Assembly (NCBI RefSeq): GCF_000425945.1
Contig: NZ_AUEK01000007.1
Location: 372,001-436,000 of the forward strand
Direction of reading: 5' to 3'
Length of the DNA stretch: 64,000 nucleotides
DNA from: Candidatus Solirubrobacter pratensis
GTDB lineage: Bacteria > Actinomycetota > Thermoleophilia > Solirubrobacterales > Solirubrobacteraceae
In this document: positions 51,866 to 58,838 of the stretch, piece by piece
Layout of the letters: each line of letters opens with the position of its first letter
How positions within the stretch are numbered: the stretch's first letter is position 1
Program-made: the position numbers and the translations under genes
The notes under the pieces: generated by a model
Seen by the model: only the letters and a program-made list of their open reading frames with translations
The model's database searches: none
Told to the model about the DNA's origin: nothing

Positions 51866-51900
51866 CGTCAGCCGTCCTCGAGCCTGAAGGAGGAAGCGCC

Positions 51901-53328
51901 ATGCAGATGCAGGAGCAAGAGCCCCCGACGCTTCGCCGCGAGTTGCGGTTCTGGGAGGCGATCGCGCTCTCCATCGCGGTGATGGCGCCGACGGCGGCGA
52001 TGGCGCTCAACGGCACGCTGCCGGCGACGCTGATCGGCCGCGCCGTGCCGCTCGCGTTCATCTTCGCGACCGTCGGCGTGATCTTCGTCGCATACGCGTT
52101 CGTGCGGCTGACGTCGTATTTCAGCCACGCGGGCTCGGTGTACGCGTTCTCGGGCGTGACGCTCGGGCCGCGGGCGGGGTTCTTCGCGGGCTGGGCGCTC
52201 CTGGGCACCTACATCGCGTTCGTCGCCGCCTCGACCGCGGAGGTCGGGCTGTTCGGCGTCGCGTTCTTCCAGAGCACGGGCATCTGGGACGGCGCCGAGT
52301 GGTTGCTGATCGCGCTCGTCGCCGGGGTCGGGATGACCGTGTTCGCGTACGGCGACATCCGCGCCGTCACGCGGTCGCTACTGGGACTCGAAGGGCTGTC
52401 GGTGACGCTGATCGTGATCCTCGTGATCGTGATCTTCGTCAAGCTCGCGACCGGCGATGCCCCGCGCGGGCAGGGCTTCACGGCCGACATCTTCAAGGTG
52501 CCGTCCGGCACGTCGCTGGACACCGTCGCGACCGCCGCCGTGTTCGGCTTCCTGTCATTCGGCGGCTTCGACGGCGCCGCCGCGCTGGGCGAGGAGACCG
52601 ACGACCCGACGCGCAACATCCCGCGCGCGATCGCCGCCGCCGTGCTGGTCTCGGGCGGGTTCTACATCCTCGTGATCATCGCCCAGACGCTCGGCTTCGG
52701 GACCGACGCGGCGGGCGTGAAGGCGTTCGGGGGCTCGTCGGCGCCGCTCGGGGACCTCTCGCGCTCCTACGTGGGGCGCGGGCTGGCGGACGCGATCGAC
52801 CTGGGCGCGACGATCAGCGCCTTCGCCGCGGCGCTGGCCGCGGCCACGGCCGCCTCGCGGATCCTGTTCGCGCTGGGCCGGGACGGGTTCGGGTTTGCGC
52901 GGCTCGGGCAGGCATCCTCGCGCACGGGCGCGCCCGCGGGCGCGCTGGCGGTCGTCATGATGGCCGCGCTGGCGGTCACGATCGTCCAGCGCATCGTGGG
53001 CACCTCGGCCGTCAACGCGTTCCTGTATCCGGGGACGATCGGGGTGCTGGCGATGCTCGTCGCCTACATCGTCACCAACGTGGGCGCGATCCGGTTCCTG
53101 TTCGTGGCGGCCCGGCGCGCGCCGCTGTGGCAGATCGTCGTGCCGATCATCGGGATCGCGTTCCTCGGCTACACGATCTGGAAGAACATCGACGGCACGA
53201 GCTTCCCGTACAACCGCTTCCCGATCGTCGTCGGCGTCTGGCTGATCGTCGGGCTGTCGATCACGGTCGCGTTCCCGGCGCTCACCCGCCGCATCGGCGA
53301 GAGCCTCGCGCGCGAGGTCAAGGACTGA
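51901..53328 (+). CDS. APC-superfamily amino acid permease
   Basis: A 475-residue membrane protein with 12 predicted helices: SIAVMAPTAAMALNG in helix 1, SYFSHAGSVYAFSGVTLGPRAG in helices 2-3, and FLSFGGFDGAAALGEETDDPTRNIPRAI, the conserved loop of the family. It takes up an amino acid, polyamine or related amine. AAGGAGG lies 7 bases before the ATG. No neighbour identifies its substrate. Confidence 0.9.
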   Translation: MQMQEQEPPTLRRELRFWEAIALSIAVMAPTAAMALNGTLPATLIGRAVPLAFIFATVGVIFVAYAFVRLTSYFSHAGSVYAFSGVTLGPRAGFFAGWALLGTYIAFVAASTAEVGLFGVAFFQSTGIWDGAEWLLIALVAGVGMTVFAYGDIRAVTRSLLGLEGLSVTLIVILVIVIFVKLATGDAPRGQGFTADIFKVPSGTSLDTVATAAVFGFLSFGGFDGAAALGEETDDPTRNIPRAIAAAVLVSGGFYILVIIAQTLGFGTDAAGVKAFGGSSAPLGDLSRSYVGRGLADAIDLGATISAFAAALAAATAASRILFALGRDGFGFARLGQASSRTGAPAGALAVVMMAALAVTIVQRIVGTSAVNAFLYPGTIGVLAMLVAYIVTNVGAIRFLFVAARRAPLWQIVVPIIGIAFLGYTIWKNIDGTSFPYNRFPIVVGVWLIVGLSITVAFPALTRRIGESLAREVKD

Positions 53329-53456: not shown

Positions 53457-54803
53457 TCAGACGACCACGCCGGGGTTCAGTAGCCCCGACGGATCGAGCG
53501 CGCGCTTGATCGCGCGCATCGCCTCGATCTCGTCCGCGGCGCGGACCAGGCCGAGGTACGGCGCCTTCGCGATCCCGATGCCGTGCTCGGCGCTGATCGT
53601 CCCGCCGAGCTCGGCGACGAGCCGCAGCACGGCCTCGTCGACCGCGTCGCCGTCGTCGTCGAGCCCGAGCACGTTGACGTGCACGTTGCCGTCGGCGAGG
53701 TGCCCGAAGAGGATCGTGCGCGCCTCGGGCGCGAGTGCCGCCACGACGTCGGGCACGTGCGCGAGGAACTCGCCCAGCGCGGTCAGCGGGACGCCGACGT
53801 CCATCTTGTGCGCGACGCCGGCCGCGGCGATCGCCTCCGTGTGCGACTCGCGCAGACGCCACATGCGCCGGCGCGAGGCCGTGTCGTCGGCGACGAGGGC
53901 ATCCTCGGGCAGCACCTCGGCGAGCTCCTCGGTCGGGTCGAACGGCGCCGCCGCCTCGACGATGAGGTACACGGCGGCGCCGTCGACCGGCGGGTCGACG
54001 CCCAAGTACGACGAGACCAGCTCGAGCCCCTCCGGCAGGAAGAACTCGACGGCCTCGAGCGAGGGAACGCGCGTGCGCAGGATTCCGAGCAGCTCGGCGG
54101 CCGCCTCGATCGAGTCCAGCGGGACCAGCGCCGCGACTCGTTCAGGGTTCGGTACCACGAGCTTCCAGCGCACGCGCGTTATGACCCCTAGGGTCCCCTC
54201 GCTGCCCACGAGCAACGCCGGCAGGGCGTAGCCGGCGTTGTCCTTGAGCAAGCCTGACATCCTGCGCACGACGCTTCCGTCCCCGAGCACCGCGTCCAGC
54301 CCGGCGATCCGCGCGCGGGCCGTCCCGTGCCGGAACGCGACCAGCCCGCCCGCGTCGGTCGACGCGATGCCGCCGAGCGTCGCGCTGTCGCGCGCCGCGA
54401 AGTCCATGCCGGCGTCCAGGCCGGCCGCGCCGGCGTGCTTCTGCAGCACGGCGAGCGTCACGCCCGCGCCGGCCTCGACCTGCGCCGTCGTCATGTCGAC
54501 CTCGCCCAGCGACGTCAGGCGCGTCAGGGAGAGCACGACCTCGCCGCCGCGCGGCACCGAGCCGCCGACGAGCCCGGTGTTGCCGCCCTGCGGCACCACC
54601 GCGACGCCGGAGTCGCGGCACATCCGCAGCACCGCCGCCACCTCCGAGGCATCGGCGGCCCGGACGACGAGCCGGGACTCGGCGCCGAAGCGGCCTGACC
54701 AATCACGCTCGTACGGCGCCCGCAGCTCGGGATCCTCGAGCACATGGGCCGAACCGACGACCGTCGCGAGCGCGTCGGCCAGATTCCCTGTCACCTGTGG
54801 CAT
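53457..54803 (-). CDS. FAD-binding oxidase/dehydrogenase, GlcD/D-2-hydroxyacid type
   Basis: A 448-residue flavoprotein: FAD-binding PCMH domain (about 30-210) with PQGGNTGLVGGSVPRGGEVV and ATLGGIASTDAGGL, and the FAD-oxidase C-terminal domain (HLADGNVHVNVL, SAEHGIGIAKAPYL). The family includes glycolate, D-lactate and D-2-hydroxyglutarate dehydrogenases. The divergent neighbour is a transhydrogenase that makes D-2-hydroxyglutarate, so that substrate is proposed here. ATG 54803 (MPQVTGNLADAL) is the start; an upstream frame to 54986 overlaps the divergent gene. Confidence 0.85.
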   Translation of the reverse strand: MPQVTGNLADALATVVGSAHVLEDPELRAPYERDWSGRFGAESRLVVRAADASEVAAVLRMCRDSGVAVVPQGGNTGLVGGSVPRGGEVVLSLTRLTSLGEVDMTTAQVEAGAGVTLAVLQKHAGAAGLDAGMDFAARDSATLGGIASTDAGGLVAFRHGTARARIAGLDAVLGDGSVVRRMSGLLKDNAGYALPALLVGSEGTLGVITRVRWKLVVPNPERVAALVPLDSIEAAAELLGILRTRVPSLEAVEFFLPEGLELVSSYLGVDPPVDGAAVYLIVEAAAPFDPTEELAEVLPEDALVADDTASRRRMWRLRESHTEAIAAAGVAHKMDVGVPLTALGEFLAHVPDVVAALAPEARTILFGHLADGNVHVNVLGLDDDGDAVDEAVLRLVAELGGTISAEHGIGIAKAPYLGLVRAADEIEAMRAIKRALDPSGLLNPGVVV

Positions 54804-54814
54804 GCTACATGCCA
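54798..54814. promoter_or_regulatory. Inverted repeat TGGCAT/ATGCCA between divergent genes
   Basis: TGGCAT-GCTAC-ATGCCA spans the start codon of the FAD oxidase gene, 17 bases before the divergent transhydrogenase ATG. Its form suits a GntR/FadR-type dimer. The cluster's GntR gene (56935-57645) is the obvious candidate binder. Confidence 0.5.
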
Positions 54815-54831
54815 GTCGTCCGAGGAGAGCC

Positions 54832-56115
54832 ATGTCTGCGAGATCTTCCGACCATGAGACCGTCTTCACGCTCGAGGCGACGCCCATCAAGTTCGGCCCT
54901 GGGGCGGCCAACGACGCGGGATGGGAGCTGAAGCGGCTCGGCGTCGAACGCGCACTTCTGGTTACGGACCCCGGAGTGCTCGCCACGGGCCATCCAGACC
55001 GGATCCGCGAGCTGATCGAGCACGACGGGATCGAGGTCGTGGTCTACGACCGCGCGCGCGTGGAGCCCACGATCGAGTCCTTCGAAGAGGCCGTCGAGTT
55101 CGCCAAGGACGCCGGCGTGGACGGCTTCGTCTCGGTCGGCGGCGGCTCCTCGATCGACACCGCGAAGGTCGCCGACCTCGTCACCACGCACCCCGCGGAC
55201 GTGATGTCCTACGTCAACCCGCCCGTCGGGGAAGGCCGCAAGCCGCAGGCGCCGCTCAAGCCCCATCTCGCGATCCCGACGACGTCGGGCACCGGCGCGG
55301 AGGCGACGACCGTCGCGGTGCTCGACATCCCCGAGCAGAAGGTCAAGACCGGCATCTCGCACCGCTACCTGCGGCCCGCGCAGGCGATCGTGGACCCCGA
55401 GCTCGCGCGCACGATGCCACCGGAGGTCGTCGCCTCGACCGGCCTGGACGTCGTCTGCCACGCCGCCGAGTCCTTCCTCGCGCGCCCGTACGACCAGCGC
55501 CCGCGGCCCGAGACGCCCGACGACCGCCCGCCCTACCAGGGCTCCAACCCGGTGGCCGACGTGTGGTCGGCGAAGGCGCTCGAGTACGGCGGCCGCTACC
55601 TGCGGCGCGCGGTCGCCGACCCGGACGACCTCGAGGCACGCGGGATGATGATGCTCGCCGCCTCGATGGCGGGCGTCGGCTTCGGCTCAGCCGGCGTGCA
55701 CATCCCGCACGCGTGCGCGTACCCGATCGCCGGCCTCAAGCACGTCTACCGGCCTGCCGGCTACCCGGACGACCATCCGTTCGTCCCGCACGGCCACTCG
55801 GTGATCGTCACCGCGCCGGCCGCCTTCCGCTTCACCTACGAGTCGATGCCGGACCGCCACCAGCACGTCGCCGAGCTGCTCCACGGCGGGCCGGTCGACC
55901 ACGACGGCCCCGATGCGCTGCCGGACGAGCTGCGCTCGCTGATGCGTGACATCGGCGCCGCGCGCGGCATCGAGGAGCTCGGCTATGGCGAGGAGGACAT
56001 CCCCGATCTCGTGCAGGGAGCGCTCAAGCAGCAGCGCCTGCTCGTCGGGGCCCCGCGCGAGGTCGGGCCCGACGACCTCGCGCAGATCCTGCGCGATTCC
56101 CTGGCGAACTGGTAG
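54832..56115 (+). CDS. Hydroxyacid-oxoacid transhydrogenase (iron-containing ADH)
   Basis: A 427-residue enzyme that transfers hydride from 4-hydroxybutyrate to 2-oxoglutarate, giving succinic semialdehyde and D-2-hydroxyglutarate (known for ADHFE1/HOT). The marks are strong: SVGGGSSIDTAK, PLKPHLAIPTTSGTGAEAT, YQGSNPVADVW, GFGSAGVHIPHACAYPI and HPFVPHGHSVI with metal-binding histidines. GGAGAG precedes ATG 54832. First gene of a rightward operon with the lactonase and GntR regulator. Confidence 0.92.
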   Translation: MSARSSDHETVFTLEATPIKFGPGAANDAGWELKRLGVERALLVTDPGVLATGHPDRIRELIEHDGIEVVVYDRARVEPTIESFEEAVEFAKDAGVDGFVSVGGGSSIDTAKVADLVTTHPADVMSYVNPPVGEGRKPQAPLKPHLAIPTTSGTGAEATTVAVLDIPEQKVKTGISHRYLRPAQAIVDPELARTMPPEVVASTGLDVVCHAAESFLARPYDQRPRPETPDDRPPYQGSNPVADVWSAKALEYGGRYLRRAVADPDDLEARGMMMLAASMAGVGFGSAGVHIPHACAYPIAGLKHVYRPAGYPDDHPFVPHGHSVIVTAPAAFRFTYESMPDRHQHVAELLHGGPVDHDGPDALPDELRSLMRDIGAARGIEELGYGEEDIPDLVQGALKQQRLLVGAPREVGPDDLAQILRDSLANW

Positions 56116-56137
56116 CGCGCACGAGAAAGGCGACGCG

Positions 56138-56938
56138 ATGAGCGACGACATCCGGCTGTACATGTTCCAGTGCGGCACGCTCAAGTGCCACGTCGAGAAC
56201 ATCAAGATGAACCAGGGGCTGGGCGAGGAGTACGAGATCCCCGTGCCGTGGTTCCTGCTCACCCACCCCGGCGGCAACGTCGTCATCGACGGTGGCAACG
56301 CGGCCGAGTGCGCCGTCGACGCGAAGAAGCACTGGGACGGGATCTGGGAGGTGTACTGGCCGACGATGACCGCCGAGGAGGCGTGCGTGCCGCAGCTCGA
56401 GAAGCTCGGCGTCGACTTGTCGTCTGTCAAGTACATCGTCCAGTCGCACCTGCACCTGGACCACACCGGCGCCGTCGCCGCGCTCGACTCCTTCGCCAAC
56501 GCCGAGGTCATCGCCACGCGCGCGGAGTACGAGTACAGCCGGGCGCCCGACTGGTTCGCCGCCGCCGGCTACATCGACGCCGACTTCATCAAGCCCGGCG
56601 TCCCGTGGCAGCTGCTCGAGACCACCGACGACGGCTACGACCTGTTCGGGGACGGCGTGCTGAAGCTGTGGCAGACGCCTGGACACGCGCCGGGCCACCA
56701 GTCGATCGAAGTCACGCTGCCCAACTCCGGCTCGGTGCTGCTGACCGTCGACGCCGCCTACACGACCGACCACTGGAACGAGAAGGCGCTGCCGGGATTC
56801 CTGGCCTCGGCCGTCGACGCCGTCCGCTCGGTCCGCAAGCTGCGCCGCATCGCCGAGCGGTCGGGCTCGACCGTGGTCACCGGCCACGACCCCGATGCCT
56901 GGCCCCAGTTCAAGCAGGCCCCGGAGTTCTACGATTGA
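56138..56938 (+). CDS. Gamma-butyrolactone/AHL lactonase, AttM/BlcC type
   Basis: A 266-residue MBL-fold lactonase. H104-L-H106-L-D108-H109 bind two metals, and TPGHAPGHQS and VVTGHDPDAW give further ligands. From RLYMFQCGTLKCHVENIKMN at the start to the end, the protein follows Agrobacterium AttM/BlcC, which opens gamma-butyrolactone to 4-hydroxybutyrate and also hydrolyses acyl-homoserine lactones. GAAAGG precedes the ATG. The transhydrogenase upstream would use its product. Confidence 0.92.
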   Translation: MSDDIRLYMFQCGTLKCHVENIKMNQGLGEEYEIPVPWFLLTHPGGNVVIDGGNAAECAVDAKKHWDGIWEVYWPTMTAEEACVPQLEKLGVDLSSVKYIVQSHLHLDHTGAVAALDSFANAEVIATRAEYEYSRAPDWFAAAGYIDADFIKPGVPWQLLETTDDGYDLFGDGVLKLWQTPGHAPGHQSIEVTLPNSGSVLLTVDAAYTTDHWNEKALPGFLASAVDAVRSVRKLRRIAERSGSTVVTGHDPDAWPQFKQAPEFYD

Positions 56939-57645
56939 CCGACCCTCCCCCGGAAGGCTTCGCCCGCCTGGGCGACGGCCGCGAGACGCTGGCCATGCGG
57001 GCGCTGCAGGAGCTGCGGACGGCGATCATCGACGGCCGCCTGGCGCCGGGTGAGCGCTTCTCGGTCGCCCAGCTCGCCGAGCTGTTCGGCGTCTCGCGTA
57101 CGCCGGTGCGCGAGGCGCTGCTGCAGCTCGAGCGCCAGGGCGTCGTGCGCTTCGAGCGCAACCGCGGCGTGCGCGTGCTGGAGACGTCCGCGCACGACGT
57201 GCAAGAGGTGTTCACCCTGCGGCTGCTGCTCGAGGTCCCCGCGACCCGGCGCGCCTGCGGGCGGCTGCGCGACGACGAGCTCGACGCGCTCGAGCGCGAG
57301 CTCGGAGAGATGGCGCGCTGCGCGGACGCCGGCGAGGAGGCGGTGTTCATGGCGCATGACGTCCGCTTCCACGAGACGCTGCTGAACGCGGCGGGCAACC
57401 AGCGGCTGGTGGCGACGATCCGCTCGCTGCGCGACCACGTGCGCTTCCGCGTCGGCTCGACGGTCGGCCACACGCGCGACCTCGCGACGATCCTCGCCGA
57501 GCACCAGGAGATCATGCGCTGCCTGCGCGAGCGCGACGCCGCCGCGGCGGCCGCCGCGATGCGCGAGCACCTGTGCAACACCGGCTCCCTGCTGCTGCAG
57601 CAGGCCGGAGCCGGCGCCGCGCAGCTCGAGCTCGACTGGAGCTAG
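56935..57645 (+). CDS. GntR-family regulator, FadR subgroup
   Basis: A 236-residue regulator. Winged HTH at about 20-85 (LRTAIIDGRLAPGERFSVAQ, FGVSRTPVREALLQLERQG) and an FCD effector domain (about 95-225) whose metal-type residues include D and H in VFMAHDVRFHETLL and H in LAEHQEIM. TTG 56935 overlaps the lactonase stop (TTGA), with GGAG shortly upstream. It probably represses the lactonase/transhydrogenase genes and the divergent oxidase. Confidence 0.9.
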   Translation: MTDPPPEGFARLGDGRETLAMRALQELRTAIIDGRLAPGERFSVAQLAELFGVSRTPVREALLQLERQGVVRFERNRGVRVLETSAHDVQEVFTLRLLLEVPATRRACGRLRDDELDALERELGEMARCADAGEEAVFMAHDVRFHETLLNAAGNQRLVATIRSLRDHVRFRVGSTVGHTRDLATILAEHQEIMRCLRERDAAAAAAAMREHLCNTGSLLLQQAGAGAAQLELDWS

Positions 57646-57710
57646 GAGTATCGACGGATCAAAGTTCAACAGCTCCTAGCGGTCCGGCCGGGGACTACGA
57701 TCCGGCTCCG

Positions 57711-58838
57711 ATGCGCGTGCTGGCCGGTCTGATCGTCGCCTCGCTGCTCGCGGCGGCCCCGGCGCAGGCGCAGACCGTCTTCGCGCCGGACGACCCCGGC
57801 TCGAGCGGGCAGCCGGGCGGCTGGGTCAATGACCAGTGGAACTTCCTGCCCGGCACCGGCGTCGACGCGCCGCGCGCCTGGGGCAACCTGATCGCCAAGG
57901 GCCGCCCAGGAGGGATCGGCGTGCGGGTCGCCGTGCTCGACACCGGGCTCGCCTACGCGGACCGCGGCCGGTTCCGCCGTTCGCCGGACATCAGCCGCTT
58001 TCGTCTGGCGCGCGGCCGCGACTTCTGCCCGCACGCCGGCCCTGGCGAGGACCCGTGCGACGGCGAGGACGCCTACCCCGACGACCCGAACGGGCACGGA
58101 ACGCACGTCGCGAGCACGATCGGCGAGGCGACGGCGAACGCGATCGGCGTCACGGGGCTCGCCTACGGCGCCACGCTGCTGCCGATCAAGGTGCTCGACC
58201 GCGACGGCTACGGCGACCAGCAGTCGATCACGGCGGGGATCCGCTACGCGGTCGCCCACGGCGCGCAGATCATCAACCTCTCGTTCGAGTTCGGCACGCT
58301 GGTGAGTTCGGCGCGGCAGATCCCGCTGGTGCTCTCCGCGGTCAAGCACGCCCGTCGCCGGGGCGTCCTGGTGGTCGCCGCCGCCGGCAACGCCGCCCAG
58401 GCGCGGGTCGCGTACCCGGCGGCGCTGCCGGGCGTGGTGTCGGTCGGCGCCGTGACCGAGGACGGCTGCCTCGCGGACTACTCCGACAGCGGACCGGGCC
58501 TCGACATCGTCGCGCCGGGCGGCGGCGACGACGCCCTGCGGCCGGGCGAGCCCCAATGCCGTCCCGGCGTCGCGCTTCGCCCGATCGTGCAGATGACCTA
58601 CGCGGGCTCCAAGCACCGGTTCGGCCTGCCGAGAGACTACGTCGGGACCTCGATGGCGGCGCCGCACGTGTCGGCCGCAGCGGCCTTGGTGATCGCGTCG
58701 GGGATACTCGGCCCCAAGCCCACCCCCCAGGCGCTCGAGCAGCGGCTGAAGGCGACCGCGCGTGACGCGGGGCCGCCCGGGCCGGACCAGGCCTACGGCG
58801 CCGGGATCCTCGACGCCGGCGCGGCTACCGCGCCGTAG
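57711..58838 (+). CDS. Secreted subtilisin-like serine protease (S8)
   Basis: A 375-residue exported protease. Signal peptide 1-20 (cut after AQA), catalytic D77 (VAVLDTG), H129 (GHGTHVAS), oxyanion N227 (AAGNAAQ) and S314 (GTSMAAPHV). No long propeptide is seen, so it may be activated differently. TACGAT (57696-57701) sits 9 bases before the ATG. A single gene between two regulators. Confidence 0.92.
   Translation: MRVLAGLIVASLLAAAPAQAQTVFAPDDPGSSGQPGGWVNDQWNFLPGTGVDAPRAWGNLIAKGRPGGIGVRVAVLDTGLAYADRGRFRRSPDISRFRLARGRDFCPHAGPGEDPCDGEDAYPDDPNGHGTHVASTIGEATANAIGVTGLAYGATLLPIKVLDRDGYGDQQSITAGIRYAVAHGAQIINLSFEFGTLVSSARQIPLVLSAVKHARRRGVLVVAAAGNAAQARVAYPAALPGVVSVGAVTEDGCLADYSDSGPGLDIVAPGGGDDALRPGEPQCRPGVALRPIVQMTYAGSKHRFGLPRDYVGTSMAAPHVSAAAALVIASGILGPKPTPQALEQRLKATARDAGPPGPDQAYGAGILDAGAATAP

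Follow-up and report, generated by a model that had tools for sequence, protein, structure and literature searches.

Mammals catabolise 4-hydroxybutyrate with a hydroxyacid-oxoacid transhydrogenase (HOT; ADHFE1) and a D-2-hydroxyglutarate (D-2-HG) dehydrogenase (D2HGDH), for which a cycle between 2-oxoglutarate and D-2-HG has been proposed (PMC5125639, PMC7801405). The propionate shunt of C. elegans couples a HOT orthologue, HPHD-1, to DHGD-1, a D-2-HG dehydrogenase that recycles 2-oxoglutarate; the substrate there is 3-hydroxypropionate, and the sections describing the shunt do not mention a lactonase (PMC10096224). In Agrobacterium, the blcABC (attKLM) system with BlcR uses the AttM/BlcC lactonase and takes gamma-butyrolactone through 4-hydroxybutyrate and succinic semialdehyde to succinate (PMC5924552, PMC3907764). 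A further relevant system is that of Achromobacter denitrificans, where the gene for the GntR-family repressor DhdR, which has an inverted-repeat operator, lies beside the D-2-HG dehydrogenase gene; according to the description of that locus, no neighbour of d2hgdh is concerned with hydroxycarboxylic acids (PMC8651671). There are thus separate precedents for HOT, for D-2-HG dehydrogenase, for AttM and for the blc route, and a GntR regulator beside D-2-HG dehydrogenase is known as DhdR. Here, we describe a locus of Candidatus Solirubrobacter pratensis, in a 64,000-nucleotide stretch of contig NZ_AUEK01000007.1 (positions 372,001 to 436,000; hereafter the window), that carries genes for a HOT, an AttM-type lactonase, an FAD-dependent D-2-HG dehydrogenase-like protein and a GntR/FCD regulator.

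A preliminary description of this DNA had placed four such genes within positions 53457 to 57645 of the window, and we confirmed both gene content and order. HOT (54832..56115; 427 amino acids; iron-containing alcohol dehydrogenase family, Pfam Fe-ADH 158.7 bits), the metallo-beta-lactamase-fold lactonase (56138..56938; 266 amino acids) and the regulator (56935..57645; 236 amino acids; Pfam GntR and FCD) form a tight run on the + strand, with 22 bp between HOT and the lactonase, and with the TTG start of the GntR gene at 56935 overlapping the lactonase TGA stop. The FAD gene (53457..54803; 448 amino acids from the ATG at 54803; Pfam FAD_binding_4 and FAD-oxidase_C) diverges on the - strand, its start 28 bp from that of HOT. 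The arrangement exceeds chance, because the lactonase is unique in this genome of 6.64 Mb and 28 contigs (one match at E ≤ 1e-10, itself) and close FAD relatives are few (only two matches at ≥ 50% identity, the window protein and L077; L-numbers label gene loci fetched for comparison), yet similar genes adjoin HOT elsewhere.

We consider it probable that these genes form a unit for inducible catabolism of gamma-butyrolactone and 4-hydroxybutyrate through a HOT/D-2-HG cycle, under GntR control from a shared palindrome. The lactonase would open gamma-butyrolactone to 4-hydroxybutyrate; HOT would oxidise this to succinic semialdehyde while passing the hydride to 2-oxoglutarate, which would yield D-2-HG with no net use of free NAD; and the divergent FAD dehydrogenase would return D-2-HG to 2-oxoglutarate, delivering electrons to an electron transfer flavoprotein, quinone or oxygen. 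A succinic semialdehyde dehydrogenase (SSADH) encoded elsewhere would complete the route to succinate. The GntR/FCD protein would repress both transcripts from the palindrome until released by a carboxylic acid of the pathway, most likely 4-hydroxybutyrate or succinic semialdehyde. A pathway from lactone to succinic semialdehyde with 2-oxoglutarate recycling had been put forward in the preliminary description, and it finds support in the tests of family, residues and cut-offs and in the recurrence of the linkage described below, all of them at the level of sequence.

The enzyme families and the proposed cycle are the same as in mammals, whereas the window genes are bacterial, diverge from one 28-bp region and are accompanied by a lactonase and a GntR regulator. 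The Agrobacterium pathway uses an NAD-type alcohol dehydrogenase for the corresponding step, and BlcR is an IclR protein. In contrast, the window encodes HOT with an FAD dehydrogenase and a GntR/FCD protein, and it has no SSADH gene: the SSADH model TIGR01780 has 18 matches in this genome, none of which lies inside the window (C5:372001-436000). The likeness to DhdR stops at the operator, which is GTTATCAGATAAC in Achromobacter denitrificans as reported and TGGCATGCTACATGCCA in the window, the palindrome between the divergent genes thus not being the DhdR site (PMC8651671).

All HOT proteins share two insertions, 19 and 13 residues long in human numbering, that are absent from other iron-containing alcohol dehydrogenases (PMC5125639). 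Aligned to methanol dehydrogenase 8zrl, the window protein leaves two stretches unmatched, one of 18 and one of 13 residues; hence, both insertions of the HOT subfamily (cd08190) are present. This test could have failed, and it upholds the earlier assignment as HOT. The 13-residue insertion is missing from one other aligned iron-containing alcohol dehydrogenase of this genome, encoded at L061, whose first loop falls short of that of HOT by just 3 residues; therefore, only the 13-residue stretch discriminates between the two. Residues D206, H210, H293 and H320, presumably the metal ligands, align to D/H/H/H of 8zrl and, like the GGGS nucleotide motif (G103-S106), are invariant among six aligned HOTs, as befits a family member. 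Plasmid records with a HOT relative (33.7-67.5% identity) are annotated as hydroxyacid-oxoacid transhydrogenase in 16 of 17 cases, the 17th being unannotated. We predict that HOT oxidises 4-hydroxybutyrate in a 2-oxoglutarate-dependent reaction.

The solved chains nearest to the FAD protein are 3pm9 and human D-2-HGDH 6lpn. With residue numbers and roles taken from the human enzyme (PMC7801405), the protein retains the equivalents of R386, T390, K401, H434, H441, N443, E475 and H476, and Y432 is replaced by F, as it is in 3pm9. The C5-carboxylate of D-2-HG is bound by T390, K401, Y432 and N443, for which GlcD and D-lactate dehydrogenase have other residues (PMC7801405); in the window protein this pocket reads T, K, F and N, three of four being identical, which places the protein with the D-2-HG dehydrogenases. 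All five of the zinc and C1/C2 residues (R386, H434, H441, E475 and H476) are present too, but do not discriminate because they are common to D-lactate dehydrogenase and GlcD (PMC7801405). We compared three paralogues that align over nearly their full length (L077-L079), leaving out the partial matches L080-L083. Positions 390/401/432/443 are Y, T, V, A in L078 and F, F, A, L in L079, neither of which has K401 or N443, and N, K, W, N in L077, which keeps both. K401 and N443 are also kept in all nine HOT-linked FAD proteins with 56-75% identity (L034-L038, L041, L050, L057 and L058). As far as sequence can, the K401/N443 set separates the window protein and these nine from glycolate and D-lactate enzymes, and we predict that the window protein oxidises D-2-HG more readily than D-lactate or glycolate. 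The retained pocket thus favours the D-2-HG substrate that had been suggested for a "divergent FAD oxidase"; "oxidase" should read "dehydrogenase", because the electrons may go to an acceptor other than oxygen. The start of the L035 FAD gene lies at the edge of that locus's counterpart of the palindrome; by analogy, the GTG at 54794, just inside the palindrome, is more likely than the ATG at 54803 to be the true start of the window gene.

The lactonase scores 408.7 bits against NCBIfam NF045700 (AttM), above the curated cut-off of 390, so that its earlier description as AttM/BlcC-like holds. Its HxHxDH motif sits in SHLHLDHTG, and the nearest solved chains (9khq/9kho) are those of an N-acylhomoserine lactonase. 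Gamma-butyrolactone is the predicted substrate and its opening the predicted reaction. For the last step of the pathway, we compared eight of the 18 SSADH-model matches, those with loci, to the SSADH-like protein encoded near HOT at L046. The two best-scoring candidates are also the two most similar to the L046 protein (55 and 54% identity), and TIGR01780 is still the top-ranking model for the L061 candidate and for the L046 protein. The expectation that an SSADH would be found outside the window is therefore borne out in part: there are candidates of 573 and 546.8 bits, and an SSADH-like gene follows HOT-lactonase-GntR in three relatives, but the model's cut-off is missed. The L061 candidate belongs to a second cluster of this genome (L061:5088-13388; contig C1, ~966-974 kb), with genes for FAD, GntR, iron-containing alcohol dehydrogenase, alpha/beta hydrolase, PfpI and SSADH-like proteins. 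Its FAD protein is 54-55% identical to that of the window and keeps K401/N443. Five genus mates have the L061-type GntR, alcohol dehydrogenase, hydrolase, PfpI and SSADH genes, and no FAD gene in the 15 kb fetched. Because its alcohol dehydrogenase is without the 13-residue HOT insertion and the genus mates are without the FAD gene, we dropped this cluster as a duplicate system and did not use it as evidence.

Of 201 genomes from the order, 27 carry HOT (E ≤ 1e-80), as do 46 of the 396 in a phylum sample (E ≤ 1e-70). Among 32 order-level loci, several of which terminate at contig ends, an FAD gene (≥ 50% identity) lies within 2.5 kb of HOT in 11, a lactonase gene within 2.5 kb in nine, a GntR gene within 5 kb in nine and an SSADH gene in three. 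The lactonase count is biased upward by four loci that were fetched via the lactonase (L225-L228), and excluding these it is 5/28. Combinations vary: FAD/HOT-GntR occurs without a lactonase (L035, L037, L038, L041), FAD/HOT-lactonase without GntR (L227), and HOT-lactonase-GntR is followed by SSADH (L040, L044, L046). The cluster genes are exchanged like modules. Lactonase relatives adjoin HOT in 23 of 28 phylum loci, 19 of them downstream on the same strand and 53-57% identical, the other four with 24-28% identity and three of these on the opposite strand. Named loci have a lactonase relative near HOT in 16 of 79 cases, ten of which are an upstream protein with 26-35% identity. We scanned two low-identity proteins, from L148 (upstream) and L143 (downstream); the best model for both is AhlS lactonase, with scores below cut-off. 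Overall, lactonases are linked to HOT in 49 loci, and in 46 of these they are on the same strand; the sets overlap somewhat, since at least L110 (phylum) and L121 (named) look like the same contig. Directly behind HOT in Deinococcus wulumuqiensis is a gene annotated attM. HOT is also adjoined by a fused FAD/Fe-S protein, in 16 of 79 named and two of five plasmid loci, for which the best NCBIfam model in three proteins scanned is D-2-HG dehydrogenase YdiJ.

Lactonase and HOT genes show some further variation among relatives. The lactonase gene behind HOT in L058 appears as two pieces in two frames, and in Deinococcus taeanensis (L114:9260-9721) the usual place of the lactonase is taken by a gene of the thioesterase family, which overlaps the 3' end of HOT. 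In genus mates, the HOT gene (L052-L056; 70-72% identity) sits in a conserved, unrelated neighbourhood, in which our FAD, lactonase and GntR queries had no match.

A perfect 7-3-7 palindrome, TGGCATG-CTA-CATGCCA (54798..54814), spans the divergent gap and the FAD ATG, and this perfect copy is the only one in the genome. GntR relatives (41-66% identity) are encoded at 14 other HOT loci. Using a consensus that was derived first from loci of the family, we searched for TRGCATG-NNN-CATGCYA with up to two mismatches in 140 order-level, phylum, plasmid and named loci (L117 of Conexibacter arvalis DSM 23288, which has FAD, HOT and GntR genes and in which no lactonase was found, was left out, being on the same contig as L041). 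Of the 15 HOT loci that have an orthologous GntR gene, 12 contain the motif, compared with 3 of the 125 that lack one; in terms of sequence length, this is 18 sites in 230,449 bases as against 3 in 1,513,657. The Fisher value for this co-occurrence (p ~3e-12) is not a strict probability, because related genomes are not independent. Without the order-level loci, the motif occurs in 5 of 6 loci with GntR and 2 of 106 without, as compared with 0/6 and 4/106 for a reversed-motif control on the same set. Three of those five positives are from Pseudonocardia (L148, L151, L156), one is from a metagenome-assembled genome (MAG) labelled Bacillota (L143), and one lies on the plasmid of R. ruber YYL (L112). 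The most distant GntR (L192; 41% identity) has no operator, and L044 and L046 have GntR with the site only in a weaker form. The phylum loci (L084-L111) span just ~1.5 kb beyond HOT, so a more distant GntR, FAD gene or operator would escape there. This co-occurrence agrees with the GntR regulator proposed earlier and makes the palindrome a candidate operator, at which the GntR protein may bind and repress. A scan of the whole genome with up to two mismatches gave one perfect and five two-mismatch sites; since these six matches are fewer than those of a backwards-read control (11 per strand), we do not claim further targets or a wider regulon in this genome.

The same operator and an orthologous GntR (51% identity) recur on the R. 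ruber YYL plasmid pYYL1.1, beside monooxygenase genes, HOT (~49%) and a FAD/Fe-S protein. A perfect site precedes, by ~30 bp, the annotated start of a gene run to which an aldehyde dehydrogenase gene and the monooxygenase genes belong, and several further copies flank the GntR gene (L112:8412-9989). The fused FAD/Fe-S protein, which has YdiJ as its best model and follows HOT here as on a plasmid of M. dioxanotrophicus, contrasts with the single-domain FAD protein of the window, and the lactonase query had no match in the 25-kb stretch of pYYL1.1. We take the monooxygenase genes to be those for tetrahydrofuran, which would be converted to 4-hydroxybutyrate. A paper on tetrahydrofuran degradation lacks the pathway terms for which we searched it (PMC10269752), and another that treats both tetrahydrofuran and GntR does not link the two in the passages concerned, which were not searched for HOT (PMC8784404). 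Evenly balanced, in our judgement, is a broader proposal, in which the GntR/FCD protein and TRGCATG-NNN-CATGCYA would govern a module that handles C4 omega-hydroxy acids and that extends through Actinomycetota to at least one MAG with the label Bacillota. HOT would be combined in this module with exchangeable AttM-like or AhlS-like lactonases and likewise exchangeable D-2-HG-recycling flavoenzymes; 4-hydroxybutyrate, whether formed from a lactone or from a cyclic ether such as tetrahydrofuran, would be oxidised via a D-2-HG shuttle to the respiratory chain rather than via free NAD.

Among the matches listed in a search of the open-access literature (titles and the starts of abstracts), we found no paper that describes HOT as part of a bacterial operon for lactones or cyclic ethers; this silence is a weak sign of novelty. 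The HOT/D-2-HG cycle has been studied in animals, in which D-2-HG is known as an oncometabolite whose normal function is disputed. If our proposal is correct, a bacterial operon that joins both halves of the cycle to a lactonase would show the cycle serving simple catabolism and would provide a genetically tractable model. The promoter and regulator could then serve as a biosensor, and HOT could be the enzyme that oxidises 4-hydroxybutyrate when cyclic ethers are degraded by plasmid-encoded pathways.

Several observations weigh against the pathway as proposed. HOT falls below every NCBIfam cut-off (choline dehydrogenase 215.7 of 550; 4-hydroxybutyrate dehydrogenase 194.7 of 500), the FAD protein is likewise below cut-off (glcD 230.3 of 567.9), three scanned FAD/Fe-S proteins score 435-454 where YdiJ requires 1350, and no SSADH candidate reaches the 646.35 bits of TIGR01780, nor does the HOT-linked protein of L046 (514.5 bits). 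Among the loci examined, the exact four-gene layout was seen only in the window; a lactonase within 2.5 kb is missing from 63 of the 79 named loci, and with the thresholds applied 50 of these 79 show neither a lactonase nor an FAD or FAD/Fe-S gene. Three of the nine close HOT-linked FAD proteins have A or P instead of T390. Six distant FAD proteins near HOT (31-35% identity) lack an intact K401/N443 pair, with S and T in its place in L040, L042, L044, L046 and L143 and G and N in L127, and 18 FAD/Fe-S proteins are without K401 and N443 in low-identity alignments (24-31%). L040, L042, L044, L046 and L143 carry a different type of FAD dehydrogenase near HOT, with S, W and T at K401, Y432 and N443; L040, L044 and L046 are also the SSADH-bearing loci. 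Hence, recycling in L040, L044, L046 and L143 may use a different enzyme or substrate. The absence of the pair from several FAD proteins near HOT, the fact that transhydrogenase activity cannot be read from sequence, and the efficient oxidation of D-malate by human D-2-HGDH (PMC7801405) all fit an arrangement in which HOT is an ordinary NAD-dependent alcohol dehydrogenase and the FAD protein a separate 2-hydroxyacid dehydrogenase, for D-lactate, glycolate or D-malate, that merely shares the promoter region. We regard this as quite unlikely, given that the window protein has both HOT insertions, that K401 and N443 are kept in its FAD neighbour and nine close HOT-linked relatives, and that FAD proteins of several types adjoin HOT in several lineages.

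The same transhydrogenase/D-2-HG cycle might instead serve another hydroxy acid, such as 3-hydroxypropionate, which HPHD-1, the C. elegans ADHFE1 orthologue, oxidises while making D-2-HG (PMC10096224), or 5-hydroxyvalerate derived from delta-valerolactone. Lactonases with the fold of the window protein accept several lactones, which speaks for this option. It nevertheless appears unlikely to us: an aldehyde dehydrogenase follows the cluster in three relatives and has SSADH as its best-ranking model, albeit below cut-off, and HOT occurs with the same operator on a plasmid whose monooxygenase genes, if they are indeed tetrahydrofuran genes, would lead to a C4 acid. In addition, gamma-butyrolactone is the compound with which the AttM/BlcC lactonase of Agrobacterium is associated (PMC5924552). 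That enzyme also cleaves acyl-homoserine lactones (PMC5924552), and this activity gives its name both to the family model and to the closest solved structures of the window lactonase, as would be expected if the lactonase were mainly a quorum-quenching enzyme and no more than co-located with a metabolic cluster. Such a role is very improbable in view of the tight, mostly same-strand linkage of lactonase and HOT across loci and the finding that Agrobacterium BlcC supports growth on gamma-butyrolactone and none on OC8-HSL (PMC3907764). For the lactonase of the gamma-butyrolactone pathway that we favour, quorum quenching is possible as a side activity at most.

An APC-type amino-acid permease gene (~51898-53328, + strand) is convergent with the FAD gene. 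We rejected it as a member of the unit, as the permease query matched the window's own locus only among 29 loci and none of 80 named loci. Scans of 54600-58000 for sigma-70 promoters and terminators found none. On the M. dioxanotrophicus plasmid, HOT and the FAD/Fe-S gene lie near a succinic semialdehyde dehydrogenase gene (L113:6646-23921), and the same stretch holds a set of genes for glyoxylate carboligase, 2-hydroxy-3-oxopropionate reductase and glycerate kinase.

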